This document shows positions 2,771-64,000 of a stretch of 64,000 bases of DNA, piece after piece (within the stretch, counting starts at the first letter, position 1; the number at the start of each line of letters is the position of its first letter). A program made the translations under genes and the position numbers. This stretch comes from Catellatospora sp. IY07-71 (GTDB lineage: Bacteria; Actinomycetota; Actinomycetes; Mycobacteriales; Micromonosporaceae), in NCBI RefSeq assembly GCF_018326265.1, contig NZ_AP023360.1, positions 5,551,501 through 5,615,500 on the forward strand, written 5' to 3'. The notes below the pieces were generated by a model that was given only the letters and a program-made list of their open reading frames with translations, did not search any database and had not been told where the DNA came from.

Positions 2771-3643
2771 GTGCCGATGCCCGCGGCCACACCGGGACGC
2801 CCGGCAGCCCGTGGGCGCCGTCGCGCGCGGCTGCTCGGCGCGGCCGTGGCGTGCCTGATCGTCGCGGGCGTCGCCACGGCCGGGGTCATCCTCAGCCGCC
2901 CCGGCGACCCGCAGCCGCACACGCTCTCGGAAAGCCCCGGCGCCGTGCCGATGAGCCCGGTCGGCGACGCCGTGGTCCCCAGCCCGGCCGCCGGCCCCAG
3001 CGCGACGGCGGCAGCGAGCCCCGGCACCCTGACCGCCGCGCCGAGCGCCGGCGCCACCAGCCCGAAGGCGGGCACCGCGACCGCGCCGCTCGCTGCGCCG
3101 GCCAACCTCACCGCGACCCCGATCAGCCACAACACCATCCGTCTGCGCTGGACGGACCGGTCCTCAGCCGAACGCGGCTTCACCGTCATCGACGGCGTCA
3201 CCTCACGCGACGTCGGCGCGAACACGACGGCCTACGACTGGACCGGCCTGGCCGCCGACACTCACGCCTGCTTCAAGGTCCGTGCGTACGGCGCGTCCGC
3301 GGTCTCGGAGTATCACCCGGCGGCGCAGAACAGCTGGGTCTGCGCGACCACTCTGCCCGGCGCGGGCCCGGCGGCGCCGTCCGGCCTCACGGCAACCACG
3401 CCCAGCCCCGACCAGATCCGGCTGCGGTGGACCGACAACGCGGACGACGAGACGGGCTTCACCATCACCAACGGGAACACCACCCGCAACGTCGGCGCCG
3501 ACGTGACCGGCTACGACTGGACCGGCCTGGATGCCGGCACCTACATGTGTTTCAAGGTCCGCGCCCACAACGCCGCGGGAGTGTCGGCATACACCCCGTC
3601 CGCGCAGAGCGACTGGGTCTGCATCACCACACCCGTCACGTAG
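2771..3643 (+). CDS. Membrane-anchored protein with two fibronectin type III domains
   Basis: 290 aa from a GTG start. It has a short basic N-terminus, one hydrophobic segment (about residues 20-43) that could be a signal anchor, then a Ser/Pro/Ala-rich linker to about residue 115. Two homologous fibronectin-III-like domains follow (about 115-200 and 205-290). They share the patterns RLRWTD, TAYDWTGL/TGYDWTGL, CFKVRA and WVC, so they look like an internal duplication. Each domain has paired cysteines. No catalytic domain is visible; it probably acts as an exported binding or spacer protein. The start is uncertain because a clear ribosome site is lacking. Confidence 0.7.
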   Translation: MPMPAATPGRPAARGRRRARLLGAAVACLIVAGVATAGVILSRPGDPQPHTLSESPGAVPMSPVGDAVVPSPAAGPSATAAASPGTLTAAPSAGATSPKAGTATAPLAAPANLTATPISHNTIRLRWTDRSSAERGFTVIDGVTSRDVGANTTAYDWTGLAADTHACFKVRAYGASAVSEYHPAAQNSWVCATTLPGAGPAAPSGLTATTPSPDQIRLRWTDNADDETGFTITNGNTTRNVGADVTGYDWTGLDAGTYMCFKVRAHNAAGVSAYTPSAQSDWVCITTPVT

Positions 3644-3649
3644 CCACCG

Positions 3650-5056
3650 TCACCAGCCTGACGGCGGGGCTTCGATGTGCACGGCCTTCGTAACGGTCAG
3701 CTCGTCGAGCAGCTCAGGACCGTACCCGAAGCCCTGGCCGCTGCCCCGGCGGGGATGCGCCGCACCGCCCGGTGCGCCGCCGAACACCGCGTTCACCTTC
3801 ACCGTGCCCACGGGCAGCTCGCGCCAAGCGCGCTGGGCGTTGCTCATCGAGCCGGTCAGCACGGTCGCGGCCAGCCCGTACGGGGAGTCGGCGGCCCGCG
3901 CCAGCCCCTCGCTGAAGGAGTCCACGGTCACCACCGGCGCGACCGGGCCGAACGTCTCCTCGCGCAGCACCGCCATGTCGTCGGTGCACTCGGCGAGCAC
4001 GGTCGGCGGGTAGTGCGCACCCGGCCCGTCCGGGACCACCCCGCCGCAGACCAGCCGCGCGCCCGCCGCCACCGCGGCCTCGACCTGGGCGTGCACCACG
4101 TCGCGCAGCCGCCGGTCGACCAGCGGCCCGACGGCCTCCGCCCACGTGTCCGCCTCGGCCGCCAGCGCCGCGACGAACGCCCCAGCGACGTCGCGGTGCA
4201 CGTACACGCGCTCCACCGCCACGCAGATCTGCCCCGAGTTGGCGAACGCGCCCAGCGCCGCCTGCTGTGCGGCCCAGACCGGATCGACGCCGGCGTCCAC
4301 TATCAGCGGGTCGCTGCCGCCGTTCTCCAGCAGCGCCTTGGCGCCGGTGCGGGCACACGCCGCCGCGATCGACCGGCCGGTCGCGGTCGAACCCACCTGC
4401 GCCACCACGTCCACCGCCGACCCGGCCAGCGCCGCGCCCACCGAGCCGTCGCCGTTCAGCAGCGATACCACCGCGGAGGGGAAGTGCGGTGCCATGAGCC
4501 GGGCGAGCCGCCAGCCGGTGGCCGGGGTGCGCTCGCTCGGCTTGTACACCACCGTGTTGCCGGTGACCAGGGCCGCACCGAGCAGCCCGCAGGAGACGGC
4601 GACGGGGTCGTTCCACGGCGTGATCACGGCGACGACGCCGCGCGGTCCGTACGCCATCAGGTCGACCGCCTGGTCGTCCCCGGCCAGCGCGCGGCCGCGA
4701 TGAACCGGCCCCAGCTCGGCGTACTGCCGCAACGTGCCGACACCCGCGCCGATCGACTCCCGCGCGCCGTCCACCGGCTTGCCCATCTCGGCCGACATGA
4801 TCCGTGCCAGCTCATCGACCGCCTGCTCAACGGCGTCCGCGGCCGCATGCAGCGCCGCCGCCCTTGCCCCGGCCGCGGTACGCGCCCAGCCGGGCGCGGC
4901 GGCCCGGGCAGCGGTGACCGCCGCCCCCACGTCCGCGTCGGAGGCGATCGGCACCAGGGTCACCGGCTCGCCGTCGAACGGGCTCAGCACGGTCAGCTCG
5001 CCGGTCCCGCGGCCAGTGCTCCAGCCACCGCCGATCAGATGCTCGACCTTGTACAT
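3650..5056 (-). CDS. Aldehyde dehydrogenase family protein
   Basis: 468-aa NAD(P)-dependent aldehyde dehydrogenase, full length for the family. The catalytic cysteine is in FANSGQICVAVERVYVH, and the general-base glutamate is in LLENGGSDPLIVD; the usual ELGG reads ENGG here. The cofactor-fold motif TPWNDPVAVSCG and the closing motif REETFGPVAPV are also present. I choose ATG 5056 because GGGAGGG precedes it at good spacing, rather than an upstream ATG at 5083. The substrate cannot be inferred from context: the gene stands alone, divergent from the MFS transporter. Confidence 0.9.
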   Translation of the reverse strand: MYKVEHLIGGGWSTGRGTGELTVLSPFDGEPVTLVPIASDADVGAAVTAARAAAPGWARTAAGARAAALHAAADAVEQAVDELARIMSAEMGKPVDGARESIGAGVGTLRQYAELGPVHRGRALAGDDQAVDLMAYGPRGVVAVITPWNDPVAVSCGLLGAALVTGNTVVYKPSERTPATGWRLARLMAPHFPSAVVSLLNGDGSVGAALAGSAVDVVAQVGSTATGRSIAAACARTGAKALLENGGSDPLIVDAGVDPVWAAQQAALGAFANSGQICVAVERVYVHRDVAGAFVAALAAEADTWAEAVGPLVDRRLRDVVHAQVEAAVAAGARLVCGGVVPDGPGAHYPPTVLAECTDDMAVLREETFGPVAPVVTVDSFSEGLARAADSPYGLAATVLTGSMSNAQRAWRELPVGTVKVNAVFGGAPGGAAHPRRGSGQGFGYGPELLDELTVTKAVHIEAPPSGW

Positions 5057-5276
5057 GGGCAGTGCCCTCCCGGTGCGGCGCACACGAACGCGGCCGCCGT
5101 CCCCAGTGCCCGGTCCAAACTATCAGCGCAGGTGGAGCTGGGTGCGACAACGTCCCCGCAGGGTGCTGCGCGGCTCGATCGGGGCGCCTGCGGGTGGGCG
5201 CGGCGGCGGATGCCCGTGCGCGGACCGGCACCAGTAGCGTCGGGCTGTCCCACGCCCGACCGTCCACGGAGCGCCG

Positions 5277-56267: not shown

Positions 56268-58241
56268 GTGCGAGACGACGAACTCGACCGGGTCCCGTGG
56301 TGGGAGCTGCGACACAACTATGGCCGCGCCGCCGACGTGCCCGGACTGTTGCGCGCCTGCGCCGATCCGGATGCCGGGCGGGCCGGTGACGCCATCGACG
56401 AGCTCCTCAACCTGATCTATCACCAGGGCGGCTGGATCTGCCCGGCCGCCCCGGCGGCGTTGCCGTTCCTGGTGGACCTGGCCGCAGGGGAGGCGAAGCA
56501 CCACCGGCCGTTCGTCGTCGAGGTCATCTGGCGGCTCGCCCGCGAGGCCACGATCATCGAGCCGCGTTTCCTGGACGGCGCCTGGCAGCCGGCGCTGGAC
56601 GCGGTGCGCCCACGGCTGCTCGCGCTGCTGGAGGATCCGGATCCGGCGGTACGCCGCGAGGCGACGCTCCTGGCCGGTCAGGGCATCCCGCACCCGGATG
56701 CGGTGCTGGCGCTGCGGCGGCGCTGGCACGCCGAGACGGACCGGGTCACCCGGTGGGACCTGGCGCTGGCGTTCGGTGCGGTGTGCGCCCGGGATCCGGG
56801 CGACGCCGCGCTGCGGGCCGAGCTCGAGCAGCTGCTGGAGCACGAGGACCTGCAGCTGAGGCTCGCCGCGCTGCACGCGCTGCACGAGTCGGATCCGTCC
56901 GTCCCGGTGGCGCACGTCGAGCTGCTGGCCCGTGCGGTGCTGCATGACGACGCCGCAGGCTGGCAGGATTCGGCCTGGATCGGCGGCGGTCGCGGCACGA
57001 TCGTGCGTCACACCGGCACCCTGCTCCGTGCTGATCCGGTGGCGGCCACGGCGTACACCATCGCCGTCAGCCGCGGCGACGAGACCGACGCGCGGGTCGC
57101 GACGATGGACCAGGCGGGGCGGGTGCTGACCGAATGGCGCACCGTCACCGGCGCCCTGCTGCCCTACCTCGGAGACCACCTCGGCGACGGCGAGCCGGAG
57201 CTGCGCTACCGCGCGGCGTTCCTGCTCGGCTGCCTCGGGACGGAGGCAGCCGGATACGCCGACCGCCTCGCTGTCCTCGCCGGTGACGGCACCATGCGGG
57301 ACACCGCCGGGCGGATCACCGTCGGGGACGCGGCCGTGTGGGCGCTGGCGCGCCAGCATGACCCGCGCAGCCTGCCCGGTCTCGTCGACCGGCTGGCGGG
57401 CGACCGGCTCGGGTTCCCCACCGCCGCCCTGCACAGCGGTGGCGGCGGGGTCTTCCTGCCGTGGCTGCCGGCCGTGCATGAGGTGCTCGCCCCGCTGGGG
57501 GAGCACGCGGAGGCGCTGATCGACGCGCTTGCGGCCCGGCTGGCCGCGGCGCGGGCTGACCGGGTGACGGCGATGAACCTGTGTGCGGTGGTCGAGGCCT
57601 GGGGCACCGCCGCGCAGCGTGCCCTGCCCGCGGTGGCGCCGCTGCTCGCCAGCACGGACTCGTACGTGCTGGCCGCGGCTGCGCGGGCGGTCGGCGGCTG
57701 CGGTCCGGCGGCGGCGGACTTCGCCCAGCCCCTGCGGCACCGGGCCGGAGATCAGCCGGAAGCCGCCTGGGCGTTGTGGCGCACCGGCGCTGACCCCGAG
57801 CTGGGCCGGGACGCACTGATGCGGCACGTGACCGGGCAGCCGGGGCGACATCAGCCCATCGCGCTGCTCGCCGACCTCGGCTCCGCGGCCGCGCCGTGCG
57901 CTGACCATCTTCGGCGCACGGCGGGTGCGGGCGAGCAGTGGCTGCGGGCCGAGGCCGCGTACGCCCTGTGGCGGATCACCGGCGACTCCGCCCCGGCGGT
58001 CACCGTGCTGACGGAACTCGCCCGTCCGCTCGTCGAGGGTGAGTGCCTGCCCGTCCGGGTCGCGGCCATGCGGCACCTCGCGGCGATCGGCGAGCCTGCG
58101 GCAGCCGCGGCGGGGGTCATCGCGCGGTCTGTGCTCAGCAACCCGCGCCGCCTCGCGTACTTCGGCGGCTGGCGGACCTTCGCCGAGGACGAGGCGCTGC
58201 GTACGGCAGCGGCTCGACTGGCGGCGTTCGGCGACGGCTGA
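56268..58241 (+). CDS. HEAT-repeat protein
   Basis: 657 aa from GTG 56268. The whole length is alpha-helical repeats of HEAT/PBS-lyase type, for example PRLLALLEDPDPAVRREATLLAG, LRAELEQLLEHEDLQLRLAALHAL and PLLASTDSYVLAAAARAVGGCG. No signal peptide or membrane segment is seen. Such proteins act as scaffolds; some are linked to modification of conserved repeat-bound partners. The gene is divergent from the GH43 gene and monocistronic, so no partner is suggested. Confidence 0.88.
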   Translation: MRDDELDRVPWWELRHNYGRAADVPGLLRACADPDAGRAGDAIDELLNLIYHQGGWICPAAPAALPFLVDLAAGEAKHHRPFVVEVIWRLAREATIIEPRFLDGAWQPALDAVRPRLLALLEDPDPAVRREATLLAGQGIPHPDAVLALRRRWHAETDRVTRWDLALAFGAVCARDPGDAALRAELEQLLEHEDLQLRLAALHALHESDPSVPVAHVELLARAVLHDDAAGWQDSAWIGGGRGTIVRHTGTLLRADPVAATAYTIAVSRGDETDARVATMDQAGRVLTEWRTVTGALLPYLGDHLGDGEPELRYRAAFLLGCLGTEAAGYADRLAVLAGDGTMRDTAGRITVGDAAVWALARQHDPRSLPGLVDRLAGDRLGFPTAALHSGGGGVFLPWLPAVHEVLAPLGEHAEALIDALAARLAAARADRVTAMNLCAVVEAWGTAAQRALPAVAPLLASTDSYVLAAAARAVGGCGPAAADFAQPLRHRAGDQPEAAWALWRTGADPELGRDALMRHVTGQPGRHQPIALLADLGSAAAPCADHLRRTAGAGEQWLRAEAAYALWRITGDSAPAVTVLTELARPLVEGECLPVRVAAMRHLAAIGEPAAAAAGVIARSVLSNPRRLAYFGGWRTFAEDEALRTAAARLAAFGDG

Positions 58242-58319: not shown

Positions 58320-60085
58320 TCAGTAGGTGCGCTCGCCGGTGAGGCCGAAGAAGTCGTGCCACTTCGCGCCGCTGCGGAACCCGCTGCCGGTGGACAGCCC
58401 GACGTACACGTCGTTGCTCGGGTTCTGGGAGAACACGATGATGTCGTCCCGGTTGTCCCGGTTGACGTCGCCTAGGTACGGGAACTCCCCGGCCAGGCAG
58501 AAGAAGTCGTTCCACTTGACCGTGGTGCCGGCGAAGGCGCTGCCGGTGGACAGCGCCACGTACACGTCGTTCGTCCCGCCGAGGGTGAAGGTGATCAGGC
58601 CGTCGCGGCCGTCGCCGTTGACGTCGCCGAGCGCCGGGAACTCGCCCCACGGGGCGAAGAACTCGTGCCACTTGACCGGGTTCGCGAACGAGGAGCCGGT
58701 GGACAGAGCCACGAACACGTCGCCCTCGCCGTCGTGGGTGAAGACCACGAGGTCGTCGCGCCCGTCGCCGGTGAAGTCGCCGGTCAGCGGGGTCTCGTTG
58801 AACGGCGCGAACCAGTCGTGCCACTTCCCGCCGCCGGCGAACGCCGTCCCGGTCGACGGGGCGACGTACGCGTCCCCGTTGTGGTCCTGGGTGAACGTGA
58901 CCACGTCGGCGTGCCCGTCACCGGTGAAGTCGGTCGGCGAGCCGCCGAACATGCCGCCGCCGGTGAGCTTCACCCGCATCAGCCACACGTTGTACGGATC
59001 CCACTGCGACATGGTGAAGTACAGGTACGGGCTGTTCGAGTCGGCCGACCACGGGTGCAGGAACGACCCTACAGCCCGGTGTACTGCGCCGCGGTGGCGA
59101 CGACCTCCTCGGCGCCCCACGGGCCCATCGGCGTCGGCGCCGTACGCAGCACCAGTGCCGCCCGCGCCTCGTTGAGGTACGCCATCACGTACCGCCCGAG
59201 GTAGCGGCTGTACAGCACGGACACCTCGCCCACCGGCCCGGCCGCGACCACGGCCGACGCCCACTGGTCGGTGACCCAGCCGGAGCCGTTCCAGTAGCGG
59301 TAGGCCGACGGCTCCAGCAGCTGGTTCTCCGGCACCCGGGCCAGGTAGGCGTTGCCGAAGCGGCCGTTCGGGGTGCCGTAGAGGTAGACGTGGCCGCTCT
59401 GGCGCAGCATCGCCGCCATCTGGAACCGGTTGTCCGAGGCGGGGGTGTTCTGCCAGCGCGCGTCGGCGTCCTTGACCCACGTCTGGCCGTTGTCGTCGGA
59501 GTACGCGATGCCCGCGTAGTTGGTGTACCAGCGCCCGGCGTCACCCCAGTGGTTGATCGACATGTAGTGCATGTACTGCCGGTTGCCCACCGAGATCGCG
59601 GCGGTCGGGATGACCGTCATCTCGTCGAAGTCGATCTGCTTGCACGGCAGCACCGTGCCCGCGTGGCCGGGCCGGTCCAGCACCGCGTCGTCGTACGTCA
59701 TGCCGTCGGCCAGGTTCCGGTCGCTGCTGCGCACCAGGGTGTTGCAGCGCCAGTCGATGGTCGCGGCGTTGCCGACACCGCCGCCCGGCCCGGTCCAGCC
59801 GTTGCCGAACGTGTCACCGAACAGGGTCAGGATCTGCCCCGACCCGTTGTCCCACATGATGCCCAGGTCGGTGGCCTTGAGCTGCCACTTGGTGTCGGTG
59901 GCGTTGATCGAGCCGGGTCCGGTGAGCTTCGCGATCCGCTCGGCGGACCCGCTGACCGCCGCGAGCGCCGCCGGGGCGGCGGCGGGGCCGGAAACCCGGG
60001 GCGGGGCGGCCGAAGCCGCCCCGCCCGGTCCGGCCAGCACGAGCGCCGCGATCGCCGCGGCGCCGGTCAGCCGGGAAGACCTCAC
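58320..60085 (-). pseudogene. DUF4185/FG-GAP repeat secreted protein, interrupted by a 1-base frameshift
   Basis: One gene split across two frames. From GTG 60085 the first frame gives a signal peptide, then a DUF4185-like five-blade domain (GPGSINATDTKWQLKATDLGIMWDNG, LFGDTFGNGW, MHYMSINHWG), ending VVATAAQYTGL and a stop at 59069-59071. The next frame resumes at once with SFLHPWSADSNSPYLYFTMSQWDPYNVWLMRVKL, the expected continuation, and then four to five FG-GAP/VCBS repeats (GDFTGDGRDDLVVFT) to 58320. Restoring one base after CTGTA repairs it. It may be a true mutation or a sequencing error. Its GTG overlaps the amidase stop (GTGA). Confidence 0.8.
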
Positions 60086-61377
60086 AGCGTGATCTCCCCG
60101 TTGAGGCCGAAGAAGTCGTGCCACTTGGCGCCGCCGAGGAAGCCGGTGCCGGTGGACAGGCCGACGTAGACGTCGTTGGTGCTGCCCTTGGCGAAGACGA
60201 TGATGTCGTCCTTGCCGTCGCCGTTGTAGTCGCCCAGGTAGGGGAACTCTCCGGCGAGGCAGAAGAAGTCGTTCCACTTCACCGTCGTGCCGACGAAGCT
60301 GCTGCCGTTGGAGACGGCGGCGTAGACGTCGGCGTCGGCGTTGCAGGTGAAGGTGATGATGTCGTCCCTGCCGTCGCCGTTGACGTCACCCACCGCCGGG
60401 TACTCCCCCGCGATGGAGAAGTACTCGTGCCACTTCACCCCGGCGCCGAAGGAGGTGCCCGTGGAGAGCGCGACGTAGACGTCCCCTTGCCCATCATGGG
60501 TGAAGGTGATGATGTCGTCGCGGCCGTCGCCGTTGACGTCGCCGACGGCGGGGACTTCGGCGCCGGGGGCGAACCAGTCGTGCCATTTGGTGCCGCCGAG
60601 GAAGGCGGTGCCGGTGGACAGGCCGACGTAGACGTCTCCGGCGTTGGTGCCGGTGGTGCCGCCGACGAAGGTGACGATGTCGTCTTTGCCGTCGCCGTTG
60701 AAGTCGCCGGTGAGCAGTTTCTCGCCGGACAGGCCGAAAAAGTCGTTCCACTTCACGCTGGTGCCCGCGAACGCCGACCCGGTCGACGTCGCGACGTAGG
60801 CGTCGTTGAGCGAGCCGAGGTTGAACGTGACGATGTCGTCCCTGCCGTCACCGGAGAAGTCCGTCGGCGAACCGGCCAGGTACTGCCCGCCCCCGCCGCC
60901 GGAGTTGATCAGCGACATGTAGTGGTTCCAGTTCCAGTGCGGACCCGGGTCGGTGTGGTCGTTGCCCGGCATCTCGTTGTGGCCCCTGATGTAGCTGCGG
61001 GTCTTCGGGATGCCCCACTTGTTGGCCAGGTGGCGCGACAGGTTCGCCGACGAGCGGTACATCGCGTCGGTGAACCACGCCGGGTTGTCCACGAAACCCT
61101 CGTGCTCGATGCCGAGCGAGTACGGGTTGGCCGACCGGGCGTGGTAGGCGGTGTCCTCGTCGCGCACCATCTGGGTGACCTCGCCGTTGCTGGACTTCAC
61201 CACGTAGTGCGCGCTCACGCCCGCCGACGGATTCTGGAACCAGCTGATCGTGCCCGCGTACGAGCCCTGGGTCACGTGGATGACGATCGTGGTGATCGCC
61301 GCCGAGCGGCCCGCGCCGTAGTTGCCGCCCGCGGCGGCGATCCAGCGCGCGCCCGGGTACTGCGGCAACCGACACAC
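60082..61377 (-). CDS. N-acetylmuramoyl-L-alanine amidase with FG-GAP/VCBS repeats
   Basis: 431 aa from GTG 61377 (AGGAG five bases upstream). The amidase-2 zinc domain (about 5-165) contains ITTIVIHVTQGSYAGTISWF (first zinc His), NPYSLGIEHEGFV and the C-terminal ligand region RGHNEMPGNDHTDPGPHWNW. It cleaves peptidoglycan stem peptides. Five FG-GAP/VCBS repeats follow (about 180-431), such as GDFNGDGKDDIVTF and GDVNGDGRDDIITF. The start gives no signal peptide, unlike most secreted amidases of this type; the real start could lie in the disturbed upstream DNA. It is coupled to the DUF4185 gene by GTGA. Confidence 0.85.
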   Translation of the reverse strand: MCRLPQYPGARWIAAAGGNYGAGRSAAITTIVIHVTQGSYAGTISWFQNPSAGVSAHYVVKSSNGEVTQMVRDEDTAYHARSANPYSLGIEHEGFVDNPAWFTDAMYRSSANLSRHLANKWGIPKTRSYIRGHNEMPGNDHTDPGPHWNWNHYMSLINSGGGGGQYLAGSPTDFSGDGRDDIVTFNLGSLNDAYVATSTGSAFAGTSVKWNDFFGLSGEKLLTGDFNGDGKDDIVTFVGGTTGTNAGDVYVGLSTGTAFLGGTKWHDWFAPGAEVPAVGDVNGDGRDDIITFTHDGQGDVYVALSTGTSFGAGVKWHEYFSIAGEYPAVGDVNGDGRDDIITFTCNADADVYAAVSNGSSFVGTTVKWNDFFCLAGEFPYLGDYNGDGKDDIIVFAKGSTNDVYVGLSTGTGFLGGAKWHDFFGLNGEITL

Positions 61378-61690
61378 GAGCGCTCCTGCGTCCCCCGGGA
61401 GAATGCGATGCGCTGCCTGACCCAGGAGCACCACGCGCCGTACCACGGCATCACGCTGCCGGGCGGCGACGGCGTACACAACGACATCGCCACCCGCGCG
61501 GCCCTGCGCAACTACGACCGGCCGCTGTTCAACCTGTTCGAGCGGGTCTACGGCGGCCGGTTGCTCGGCTCGTGACCGGTCAGGGCCGGACCGGCGTGCC
61601 GTACTTCGGCACCGCCTGGAACGGCAGGTCGGGCACCCGCTGCGACTCCCCGGCCGGGATGCAGGTGAATTACCGCAACCTTGTCGCGAC
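61378..61690. other. Gene-poor region with two protein-coding remnants
   Basis: About 310 bases without a complete recognisable gene. On the plus strand 61408-61575 is open for 55 codons and reads like a protein C-terminus (ALRNYDRPLFNLFERVYGG). On the minus strand about 61580-61668 reads ESQRVPDLPFQAVPKYGTPVRP to a stop. Neither has a recognised family or a good gene context, so they may be fragments left by rearrangement. The amidase gene next to it also lacks its expected signal peptide. Confidence 0.4.
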
Positions 61691-61750: not shown

Positions 61751-62425
61751 TCAGCGACGGCGGCGCGCGGCCGGCGGGGCGATGCGGACCCGCTCGGTCT
61801 CGGGGCGGCGCTCGATGTCGTGCAGCTGCTCGGTGACCGTGGCGCGCAGCTCGTCGTAGCTGTCGAACGAGCTGTCCTGGAACAGCATGTAGCCGGCCCA
61901 CATCAGGTTCGCGCACACCTGCGGCGGGACCTTGCCGGTCGCCGCGCCCATGCCGACCAGCGCGACCGAGCCGATGCTGCCGGGCTCTCGCTCGTTCTGC
62001 ATGTGCACGGCCTGGAAGGCGGCGGCGCAGGCCAGGGCCGTGTTCAGGGTCTCCCGGACGTTCTGCGACTGCTGCGTCATGGTCGGCGTGGAGATGAGGA
62101 ACCTCGGGTTGGCCGCCCCGGACGGCACGCACACCGCGCTGCCGATCGGCAGTGACCCGCCGAACCCGTCCCGGATGGCCCGCTGCACCCGCAGCTGGAT
62201 CCCGGCGCCGAGGTGCCGCTTGACGACCGCGTCGACACCGCCGCTCATCAGGCCGTGCGAGTTGGTCGGGCTGACCCACGCGTCGACGTGCTGATCCAGG
62301 ATCGAACCCTGCACGATCCGCACCTCGGGGGTGTCGGCGAACGCCGAGCGCCAGGCCTGCACCACCTTCGCGTTCACATCGGTCAGCACCACGGCGAGGG
62401 GCGAGGTCACACGGTCAGCGGTCAT
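61751..62425 (-). CDS. Macrodomain protein
   Basis: 224 aa from ATG 62425. A macrodomain (ADP-ribose/nucleic-acid ADP-ribose binding fold) with the diagnostic loop DAWVSPTNSHGLMSGGVDAVVKRHLG (about residues 50-75). GSAVCVPSGAANPRFLISTPTM and VALVGMGAATGKVPPQVCANLM follow as expected. Such proteins bind or hydrolyse ADP-ribose adducts. The gene is divergent from a protein carrying an ADP-ribosyltransferase domain, 177 bases away, so it could reverse or shield that activity. Hydrolase activity cannot be judged from sequence alone. Confidence 0.88.
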   Translation of the reverse strand: MTADRVTSPLAVVLTDVNAKVVQAWRSAFADTPEVRIVQGSILDQHVDAWVSPTNSHGLMSGGVDAVVKRHLGAGIQLRVQRAIRDGFGGSLPIGSAVCVPSGAANPRFLISTPTMTQQSQNVRETLNTALACAAAFQAVHMQNEREPGSIGSVALVGMGAATGKVPPQVCANLMWAGYMLFQDSSFDSYDELRATVTEQLHDIERRPETERVRIAPPAARRRR

Positions 62426-62602
62426 GGCGCACTCCGGTCGGGAGAAGGGGATGTCGTCGAGCGGGCAGACCATAACCACACCCGCCGACAATGTTCGGAT
62501 CGGACGGTCGCCGTCCGCGGAATGTCCGCGCCCGGTGCTACGTTGCCGCCGCCTTGATCCGATCGGCGGTCCCACCCCCGCCCACCCACTCCGGAGCCGA
62601 CG
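62426..62602. promoter_or_regulatory. Divergent control region, macrodomain and UDG-ART genes
   Basis: 177 bases between the two divergent starts. It must hold both promoters. I see no clear palindrome; the central part (62460-62510) is the least GC-rich. Shared control of the two genes is inferred from the layout. Confidence 0.35.
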
Positions 62603-64000
62603 ATGAGCGACACCCCGACGACACCCGACCCGAACGACCCGCTCGGGCTGGCCGCACTGTTCCAGGGCGGCGGTGAGCCGTGGCTGCCGCTGCTCAAGCC
62701 GGTCATCGAGGCGCAGCCGGCGGCGCACACCTTCATCGGGCCGGGCCGCAGCTCGAAGGTCGTCCCGGTGCGGGAGCTGACGTTCCAGGCGCTCAAGCCG
62801 AACCCGCCGCACAAGTGGAAGGTCGTCGTCTTCGGGCAGAACCCCTACCCGCGGCCGGAGAGCGCCACCGGCATCGCCATGTTCGACAACACCTTCCACA
62901 ACTGGGACGACAGCCAGTTCGGCAAGGTGATCAGCATCCGCTGCATCATCAAGGCCGCGGCGATGTGGAAGCACGGCATCCCCAAGAAGACGCCGATCGC
63001 CGACATCCGCGCGCTGCTGCGCAAGCACGACACCGTGCAGCCGCCCGAGTGGTTCCAGGCCATGCTCACCCAGGGTGTGCTGCTGCTGAACGCCTCCCTC
63101 ACCGCCAGCAGCGACGGCGCGATGGCCACCGACCAGCACACCGGGTTCTGGAAGCCGACCGTCGAGAAGATCGTCGAGGAGATCCTGAAGGCCAAGCAGG
63201 ACGCCGACGAGGCCGACCGCGGCGTGGTCTTCGCCTGGTGGGGCGCGCACGCCCGCAACCTGAAGAACGTCGTGGTACGCCTGCAGAAGAAGTACCCCGG
63301 CGTCGAGGTCCGCCACATCGACCACCCGAACCCGGCCGCGCAGGGCGACATCTTCTGCGACGGCGACCACTTCGGCCTGGTCAACGCCGCGCTGCGGGCG
63401 CTGGGCACCGACGAGATCGACTGGCTGCCCGCCAAGGGCTGGAGTGCTGGGGCGGCGGGCGGCGGCGGGACCGAGCCCGGCACGGCCGACCGGATGGGCG
63501 CGTTCATCGCCTCCACCATGGAGCTGCACAAGCTCTACCTGGAGCGGCTGGAGAGCGTCAAGGACGAGGGCCTGGCGCTGCCCGAGATCACCGGCGTGTT
63601 CGACACCCCGCTGCTGGACTTCCGCGAGGCCGTCGCACCGGCGGCGAAGGTGCTGTCGGGCCTGGGCTGGCACGTGACGCGCTCGCACGACTTCGGCGTC
63701 CAGCACGCGGAGGGGACCGGCCTGTCCGCCGACGAGGCCGCCGCGCTGTACCTCTACACCTGCGAGTCGGCCTTCTACCGGCAGATCAACGCCGCGCTGC
63801 GCCACCCGGACCGCACCCGGATCGTGCCGTACCTGCCCTACCTGCGTCTGCTCTTCTCCGCCGTGTCGCAGCTGCCGGCCCGCACCGAGCCGGTCTGGCG
63901 CGGCGTACGCCTCGACCTGCGCTCGCAGTACCCGCTTGGGGAGACGGTGACCTGGTGGGGCGTGTCCTCCTGCACGTCGAAGCTCAGCGTGGCCGAGGCG
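62603..64000 (+). CDS. Uracil-DNA-glycosylase-like / ADP-ribosyltransferase fusion (3' end beyond window)
   Basis: 466 residues visible from ATG 62603; it runs off the right edge. Residues about 45-270 are a UDG-superfamily domain: VVFGQNPYPRPESATGIAMF (74-94, aligning with the UNG water-activating loop, but Asn80 replaces the UNG Asp), GVLLLNASLT (158-167), FAWWGAHA (210-217) and HPNPAAQGDIF with His241 at the position of the UNG leucine-loop His. A Gly-rich linker lies near 283-289. Residues about 370-466 match NAD:arginine ADP-ribosyltransferases: AALYLYTCESAFYRQINAAL, VWRGVR (Arg433) and VTWWGVSSCTSK (S-x-T-S at 456-459). The last catalytic motif (E-x-E) must lie to the right. The gene is next to and divergent from a macrodomain gene. 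Confidence 0.85.
   Translation, partial: MSDTPTTPDPNDPLGLAALFQGGGEPWLPLLKPVIEAQPAAHTFIGPGRSSKVVPVRELTFQALKPNPPHKWKVVVFGQNPYPRPESATGIAMFDNTFHNWDDSQFGKVISIRCIIKAAAMWKHGIPKKTPIADIRALLRKHDTVQPPEWFQAMLTQGVLLLNASLTASSDGAMATDQHTGFWKPTVEKIVEEILKAKQDADEADRGVVFAWWGAHARNLKNVVVRLQKKYPGVEVRHIDHPNPAAQGDIFCDGDHFGLVNAALRALGTDEIDWLPAKGWSAGAAGGGGTEPGTADRMGAFIASTMELHKLYLERLESVKDEGLALPEITGVFDTPLLDFREAVAPAAKVLSGLGWHVTRSHDFGVQHAEGTGLSADEAAALYLYTCESAFYRQINAALRHPDRTRIVPYLPYLRLLFSAVSQLPARTEPVWRGVRLDLRSQYPLGETVTWWGVSSCTSKLSVAEA

Follow-up and report, generated by a model that had tools for sequence, protein, structure and literature searches.

A uracil-DNA-glycosylase-like/ADP-ribosyltransferase fusion gene paired with a macrodomain gene behind a putative DNA-damage promoter in actinomycetes

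The bacterial pairs of an ADP-ribose writer and a macrodomain protein that we met in the literature are either toxin-antitoxin or oxidative-stress systems. DarTG, in which an ADP-ribosyltransferase (ART) is paired with a macrodomain protein, is a toxin-antitoxin system, and in the SirTM/zinc-macrodomain operons a stress-linked writer is accompanied by a macrodomain eraser (PMC7050489; this and the other papers given by PMC number are cited from part of their text). A macrodomain protein of Streptomyces coelicolor, SCO6735, has a RecA-NDp promoter and is induced about five-fold by ultraviolet light (PMC5087735). Here we describe a locus at the right end of a 64,000-nt stretch of DNA of Catellatospora sp. 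IY07-71 (contig NZ_AP023360.1), hereafter the window, which is positions 5551501-5615500 of an 8.6-Mb single-contig genome. At this locus a gene for a macrodomain protein and a gene for a protein that joins a uracil-DNA glycosylase (UDG)-like fold to an ART, hereafter the fusion, are divergent and are separated by an intergenic space of 177 nt (Table 1). An earlier note made from the letters of the window had recognized the two genes and had suggested a conflict or DNA-repair-switch system. Our analysis indicates that the two genes are almost certainly a conserved module, which is present in many actinomycetes of soil, and that a damage-type promoter, which the note had overlooked, very probably precedes the macrodomain gene.

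The gene pair and its distribution

The window ends inside the fusion gene. When read from the genome, the gene ends 207 nt past the window edge, codes for 534 aa, and lies at genome positions 5614103-5615707 (L004:7604-9208), which is 62603 to 64207 in the numbering of the window. The earlier note had proposed that a UDG fold is joined to an arginine-type ART in this protein and that the adjacent divergent gene codes for a macrodomain. Both proposals were borne out because NCBIfam uracil-DNA glycosylase models match the N-terminal part of the fusion (best E=7.4e-22), Pfam ART (PF01129) matches its C-terminal part (E=3.6e-16; 59.6 bits against a cut-off of 22.3), and Pfam Macro matches the product of the neighbouring gene.

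A scan of species genomes gave 205 confirmed relatives of the fusion, and the best 80 of them come from Micromonosporaceae, Streptosporangiaceae, Streptomycetaceae, Thermomonosporaceae, and Nocardiaceae. In 79 of these 80 loci a macrodomain gene adjoins the fusion gene, and the exception, L127, is cut by a contig end, its first base being base 1 of the contig. Among 300 genomes of Micromonosporaceae, 131 had some match to the fusion at E<=0.001 and 32 had a strong one (at least 74% identity); the other matches, among those listed, were weak and were chiefly to ordinary UDG segments. All 32 strong carriers have the macrodomain gene, at 73% identity or higher, on the same contig and on the opposite strand. 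In G033 the fusion is present from aa 238 onward only, and in G006 and G067 the macrodomain match holds a stop. At the class level, in a sample of 394 genomes that includes the host, the fusion (E<=1e-20) and the macrodomain gene (E<=1e-25) were found in the identical 13 genomes. The fusion is present in 73 of 297 Streptomycetaceae genomes, where it is in two pieces in G1105 and G1135 and a fragment in G1072, and the best-scoring 30 loci of these 73 carriers all have the macrodomain gene, 29 of them divergent and one codirectional. These four samples overlap with one another. The two genes are paired far more often than chance would allow; the idea put forward in the earlier note presupposed that the two genes occur together elsewhere, and they do. 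Relatives of the macrodomain gene that have no fusion beside them are a gene of 65% identity in G024, fragments in G268 and G016, and distant ones in G007, G026, and, as one further genome of the class-level sample, G546.

The arrangement of the two genes varies and their association persists. The two genes are divergent in 65 of 79 loci and codirectional in 14, where the macrodomain gene precedes the fusion gene. In six of the 14 the two genes form a single open frame of 771-791 aa, measured up to where the fusion match ends, and in the other eight the frames differ. On a linear plasmid of Streptomyces, a coding sequence of 801 aa holds both the macrodomain and the fusion and is annotated as an ADP-ribosyltransferase domain-containing protein only. 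Pfam Macro and ART were both matched within one chain in each of the two examples that were scanned. In a quick tree of 81 rows the codirectional rows fall in three places, two of which are the single rows L118 and L126 and the third a starred clade with 12 rows. The six fused forms, which belong to a Streptomyces clade, are all among these 12 rows, and the well-supported branches force just one origin of the codirectional arrangement. This joining in cis is the strongest evidence that the macrodomain and ART activities meet one molecule. On the tree the fusion of Nocardia amamiensis (L111) sits among Streptomyces sequences, which suggests horizontal transfer.

No other neighbour family was found in more than 11 of the 80 loci with a crude gene caller, which found a separate macrodomain gene in just 54 of them. 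Defence islands were checked for by this neighbour clustering only, the neighbours not having been scanned with PADLOC, and no recurrent family above 11 of 80 was seen. A phage origin of the fusion was considered and rejected because no relative of it was found in viral contigs. In phage records the fusion had 33 matches, which were ordinary UDG-like ones covering at most 42% of the query, and the macrodomain protein matched 17 records with macrodomains at 30-34% identity; the scan of viral contigs with the macrodomain protein gave no match. In the plasmid set 18 records were matched, four of them with the fusion (records of 0.33 to 11.9 Mb).

Domains of the two proteins

The earlier note had pointed to the C-terminus of the fusion, which the window omits, as the place to look for the ExE motif of the ART. 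It is there as TGEEEF, with ExE at aa 496-498, and an STS-like motif is at aa 455-459. R433, S455, S456, T458, E496, and E498 are invariant in all 30 aligned family members, that is, in 30 of the 32 strong relatives with G006 and the partial G033 excluded. The equivalents of these residues, the R, S, E, and E among them, are kept in 80/80 wider relatives, a set that overlaps with the 30. With a Pfam score above the cut-off and with the conserved R, S, and ExE, the fusion falls in the R-S-E (ARTC-type) group, and we consider it probable, with good confidence, that its ART is catalytically active. The sixth residue of the ARTT loop has been described as Glu in an arginine-modifying enzyme and as Gln in asparagine- or guanine-modifying ones (PMC7827354). 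We infer that E496 is the target-recognition residue of the fusion. Glu is at this position in 80/80 relatives. As Glu there goes with arginine, the ART would more likely modify protein arginine, and DNA would be a less likely acceptor of ADP-ribose than protein. In a search with the ART profile the fusion was the sole match in four genomes, and at the phylum level 2 of 296 genomes matched, both with fusions. The whole fusion protein had weaker, ART-only matches in G288, G129, and G156. The one in G129 (L191, 4801-5121; 36%, E=4.2e-4) is near the end of a 787-aa open frame (2815-5178), which is possibly another protein with a related C-terminal ART.

The N-terminal part of the fusion is related in sequence to Ung, the family-1 UDG, as is seen from its matches to the NCBIfam models, all of which are under the equivalog cut-offs, and to solved UDG structures (Table 1); Pfam UDG (PF03167) did not match the fusion at E up to 1. 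The motifs of family-1 UDG are given as GQDPY for motif A and HPSPLS for motif B (PMC10359453). In the fusion, motif A is GQNPYP in 80/80 relatives, and 28 of the 30 sequences of the Micromonosporaceae set have GQNPYP, the other two having GQNPFP and GQEPYP, respectively. In the numbering of E. coli UDG, the changes D64N, F77M, and L191A, which affect the motif A Asp, the stacking Phe, and the motif B Leu, respectively, are fixed in 80/80 relatives, and the equivalents of the pocket residues Gln63, Tyr66, Asn123, and His187 are retained in 80/80. The second-best solved-structure match, 5x3g, which is presumably BdiUng, has GQDPYPRPESA where the fusion has GQNPYPRPESA. Since these three residues, which are key ones in an active uracil glycosylase, are replaced in 80/80 relatives, calling this part a base-excision enzyme, as the earlier note had done, is probably wrong, and we dropped ordinary uracil glycosylase as a working description for the same reason, although residual activity may be present. 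The UDG domain is not decaying because its mean column identity over the 80 relatives is the highest (0.90, compared to 0.88 for the ART and 0.60 for the linker) and because its ratio of nonsynonymous to synonymous substitution rates (dN/dS) is low (0.09-0.19 in eight pairs, with 0.01-0.35 for the ART). These values point to purifying selection on both domains and lend weak support to a housekeeping role. On balance we lean towards the UDG fold serving as a reader instead of a glycosylase.

The relatives of the macrodomain protein are 65-98% identical and their TN and GGxD positions are invariant. The alignment has 29 of the 32 relatives, L064 and G006 being excluded because of internal stops along with G033, and N55 and D65 are invariant in 80 rows. 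In MacroD2, Asn92 and Asp102 are near the distal ribose (PMC7050489). By its Macro score and the conserved Asn and Asp the protein is of the MacroD type, an assignment made by motif only, and the MacroD Asp is not universal among members. A solved-structure profile search with E up to 0.01 gave macroH2A1.1 and DR_2288 only. It is likely that the macrodomain protein acts on the product of the ART. In G024 (L155; 5265-6008 and 6781-7458) an ung that looks canonical (GQDPY) and lacks an ART is close to the 65%-identical macrodomain gene, and a RecA-NDp-type site is upstream of each of these genes. This arrangement may be an older or an alternative link of the macrodomain protein to uracil repair.

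Promoters upstream of the two genes

The damage promoter that is independent of LexA/RecA has been described as tTGTCRgtg-8 nt-TannnT (PMC5656591), and PafBC works through this RecA-NDp-type promoter (PMC6789036). The pattern TGTC-N12-TANNNT has two matches in the 64-kb window, both are in the 177-nt intergenic space, and one faces each gene. In Micromonosporaceae, 27 of 30 loci have at least one site there, and zero sites were found in 246,360 nt of flank on both strands. On the macrodomain side the site is present in 70 of 79 orthologous loci, in 61 of these 70 at 61-68 nt upstream of the start, the starts in these counts having been carried over from tblastn matches; it is also present in 30/30 of the best-scoring Streptomycetaceae loci. 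Positions 6-9 of the macrodomain-side site, for which no selection was made, are R in 70, G in 68, T in 60, and G in 63 of the 70 and match the published consensus. The 65 divergent intergenic spaces have 80 sites in 26,552 nt whereas the flanks have 12 in 3,102,392 nt on both strands, which is 301 versus 0.39 per 100 kb. When the spacer was set to 10, 11, 13, or 14, with CA also allowed for TA, 0 or 1 sites were found. The SOS box, GAAC-N4-GTTC, was found in none of the 79 stretches upstream of the macrodomain gene. With these counts there is little doubt that the promoter predicted for the macrodomain gene is of the damage type. On the fusion side the free positions of the sites fit the published letters less well than on the macrodomain side. 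The DNA-repair switch of the earlier note is supported by RecA-NDp/PafBC-type promoters, strongly on the macrodomain side and partially on the fusion side.

The host has a locus with PafA (TIGR03686 above cut-off), two adjacent WYL proteins, one of which has HTH_PafC, and TatC. We take this as the presence of PafBC in the host, pafB being assigned by position and WYL domain only. In the 8.6-Mb host genome TTGTCNG-N10-TANNNT has 13 matches compared to 3 for the reversed pattern, and the genes that have one of these sites at or in front of them include recA, the canonical ung, a beta-clamp-like gene, the genes for a SWIM-domain protein and a HEAT-repeat protein, and the macrodomain gene. In the canonical ung (L164:825-1523; site at 657215) the RecA-NDp-type site is at the start of the open frame. 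A divergent DNA polymerase III beta-clamp-like gene (L168:1501-2682), with 118 bits for TIGR00663 and thus under the cut-off of 137.65, is directly behind the site at 3965486. The site at 7095991 goes with the HEAT-repeat protein (L173:1501-3021; Pfam HEAT), and a similar-looking protein is in the window at 56268-58241.

Table 1. Coordinates of the features of the gene pair (window numbering)
Feature	Position	Strand	Remarks
Macrodomain protein gene	61751..62425	(-)	224 aa; start ATG at 62425, stop included; Pfam Macro E=2e-10
RecA-NDp/PafBC-type promoter (putative) toward macrodomain gene	62469..62491	(-)	TTGTCGGCGGG-TGTGGT-TATGGT; first base 66 nt from macrodomain gene start
Weaker RecA-NDp-like site toward fusion gene	62522..62544	(+)	ATGTCCGCGCC-CGGTGC-TACGTT; 81 nt upstream of ATG
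UDG-like/ART fusion gene, part in window	62603..64000	(+)	ATG at 62603; window end cuts at aa 466
Family-1-like UDG fold	62660..63433	(+)	About aa 20-277; NCBIfam ung models, PDB UDG matches such as 3tr7 and 5x3g
Motif A GQNPYP	62834-62851	(+)	Asn80 where catalytic Asp is expected
ART domain, first part	63710..64000	(+)	R-S-ExE type; Pfam match aa 370-529; rest past window end
ART catalytic Arg433	63899-63901	(+)	R of R-S-ExE

Elsewhere in the window, two adjoining genes of the minus strand (58320-61400) code for proteins with DFNGDGKDDIV-type repeats, and the start of one of these proteins is amidase-like as judged by eye.

Proposed role, rival explanations, and known systems

The reading that we favour, by a little over an even chance, is that the two genes form a damage-linked module for reversible ADP-ribosylation. 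In this module DNA damage would, through PafBC-type activation, raise the expression of the macrodomain gene and, in part of the family, also that of the fusion gene. The C-terminal R-S-ExE ART would write mono-ADP-ribose, most likely on protein arginine, and the N-terminal UDG fold, no longer an ordinary uracil glycosylase, would recruit this writer to DNA that is damaged or unusual. Reading or removal of the mark by the macrodomain protein would then keep the signal transient and non-toxic. A role in signalling rather than as a toxin seems to us somewhat the better supposition.

Several observations weigh against this proposal. Nine of the 79 macrodomain genes have no site, several being near misses, e.g., CGTC for TGTC (three Catellatospora loci), and four divergent loci (L079, L080, L084, and L132) have a site on neither side. 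Just 24 of the 65 divergent loci, or 28 with CA allowed, have a fusion-side site, so that control of the ART by damage is indicated chiefly at loci where the ART is downstream of the macrodomain promoter. The host genome gave no match to the published consensus in its strict form, the host site being a looser form of it, and about 3 of the 13 host sites may be due to chance. In S. venezuelae the M. smegmatis PafBC motif is seemingly not conserved according to PMC9380542, which in the part cited here mentions neither ADP-ribosylation nor macrodomain proteins. Asn is found in motif A of UDG families 2 and 3 (PMC10359453) and the canonical ung of the host has Met for the motif B Leu; therefore, residual glycosylase activity of the fusion is possible. 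Lastly, MacroD-type enzymes act on acidic-residue and ester linkages while ARH1 acts on arginine (PMC7050489). The ExE motif points to arginine but the MacroD-type motifs point to acidic-residue linkages and, therefore, a role as a reader is as likely for the macrodomain protein as a role as an eraser.

The rival that we take most seriously, although we consider it doubtful, is a toxin-antitoxin or abortive pair in which the UDG-like/ART protein is a toxin that halts growth by acting on DNA or on a DNA-bound protein and the macrodomain protein is the antidote that removes the ADP-ribose. The damage promoter would then limit or trigger self-poisoning, possibly in phage defence. An antidote would suit the finding that the fusion is never without the macrodomain gene in the 79/79 loci with readable flanks, which is also a point against the module that we favour, whereas macrodomain relatives without the fusion exist. 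The distribution is patchy (32/300, 13/394, and 73/297 genomes), and DarTG, the known pair of an ART and a macrodomain protein, is a toxin-antitoxin system. On the other hand, the better-conserved damage promoter belongs to the gene of the supposed antidote, inside one clade both domains are in a single chain, and the fusion has no match in PADLOC. Neither the neighbours, by the crude gene calling described above, nor the viral contigs and phage records, with their ordinary UDG matches only, speak for a toxin, and only 4 of the 18 plasmid-set records matched have the fusion. Purifying selection on both domains also argues against it, although weakly.

In an unlikely alternative the protein is a lesion-processing enzyme whose UDG part excises an unusual base, whose ART caps or modifies the DNA site, and whose product is later cleared by the macrodomain protein. 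The retained equivalents of the four pocket residues, the Asn in motif A of UDG families 2 and 3, the close likeness of the motif A neighbourhood in 5x3g, and the cleavage of thymidine-linked ADP-ribose in DNA by SCO6735 (PMC9411070) could all be read in this way. However, the positions of the catalytic Asp, the stacking Phe, and the intercalating Leu are all changed, the target-recognition residue of the ART is Glu and not Gln by the rule of PMC7827354, and the canonical ung is still present in the host and has a RecA-NDp-type site itself. It is far less probable still that two unrelated damage genes are merely neighbours held together by co-regulation. G024, where a macrodomain gene is near a canonical ung with no ART and each has the motif, would be an example of this, but adjacency in 79 of 80 loci over several families, an association that is kept when the orientation changes, and the in-frame fusion in the Streptomyces clade speak against it.

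If the two genes are a reversible ADP-ribosylation module, it would be tied to a LexA-independent damage response and would have a repair fold in the writer, which would make ADP-ribose signalling of DNA damage in bacteria directly testable. It would, in addition, supply macrodomain research in Streptomyces with an endogenous ART candidate; SCO5461, for which a role as a secreted toxin has been described, has been called the sole predicted ART of S. coelicolor (PMC5087735, PMC11833690).

Among described systems, DarT/DarG shares with the module the pairing of an ART with a macrodomain protein. The comparison with DarTG that the earlier note had made holds for function only because the fusion, with its R-S-ExE ART, has no PADLOC match at E up to 1, DarT included, and the macrodomain protein matches DarG alone and marginally (E=0.011). 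Membership in DarTG was rejected on the PADLOC result and the R-S-ExE residues. Unlike DarTG, the module has a PF01129 ART joined to a UDG-like domain, its genes are mostly divergent, and it has a damage-type promoter. The likeness of the fusion to the BdiUng-like UDG is in the motif A neighbourhood, GQxPYPRPESA, but the fusion has Asn for the catalytic Asp and Met for Phe and is joined to an ART. The SirTM operons differ from the module in having a sirtuin as the writer, a lipoylated carrier protein, and a link to oxidative stress (PMC7050489). SCO6735 is grouped with the ALC1/TARG1 macrodomains and, in the part of PMC5087735 cited here, no partner ART gene is named beside it; the macrodomain protein of the module, in contrast, is MacroD-like at its TN and GGxD positions and is partnered by an ART. 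No description of a UDG-ART fusion or of its pairing with a macrodomain was found in a literature search that covered titles and the starts of abstracts, with subscription papers mostly outside its coverage.

In PARP1/PARG and the macro-PARPs a lesion-binding part is combined with an ART catalytic part, and a macrodomain reader or eraser is in the same pathway or chain. The ART of the module is of another clade and its presumed DNA-binding fold is a different one, and no homology is claimed. It is a tentative thought that the module is a bacterial counterpart of PARP signalling built from unrelated parts, namely, a rebuilt base-excision fold as lesion reader, an arginine-type ART, a co-regulated macrodomain, joined in cis in some Streptomyces, that reads or erases the mark, and the PafBC response. 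Pairs of a writer and a macrodomain protein are known, and what is unusual in this module is its architecture and its regulation.

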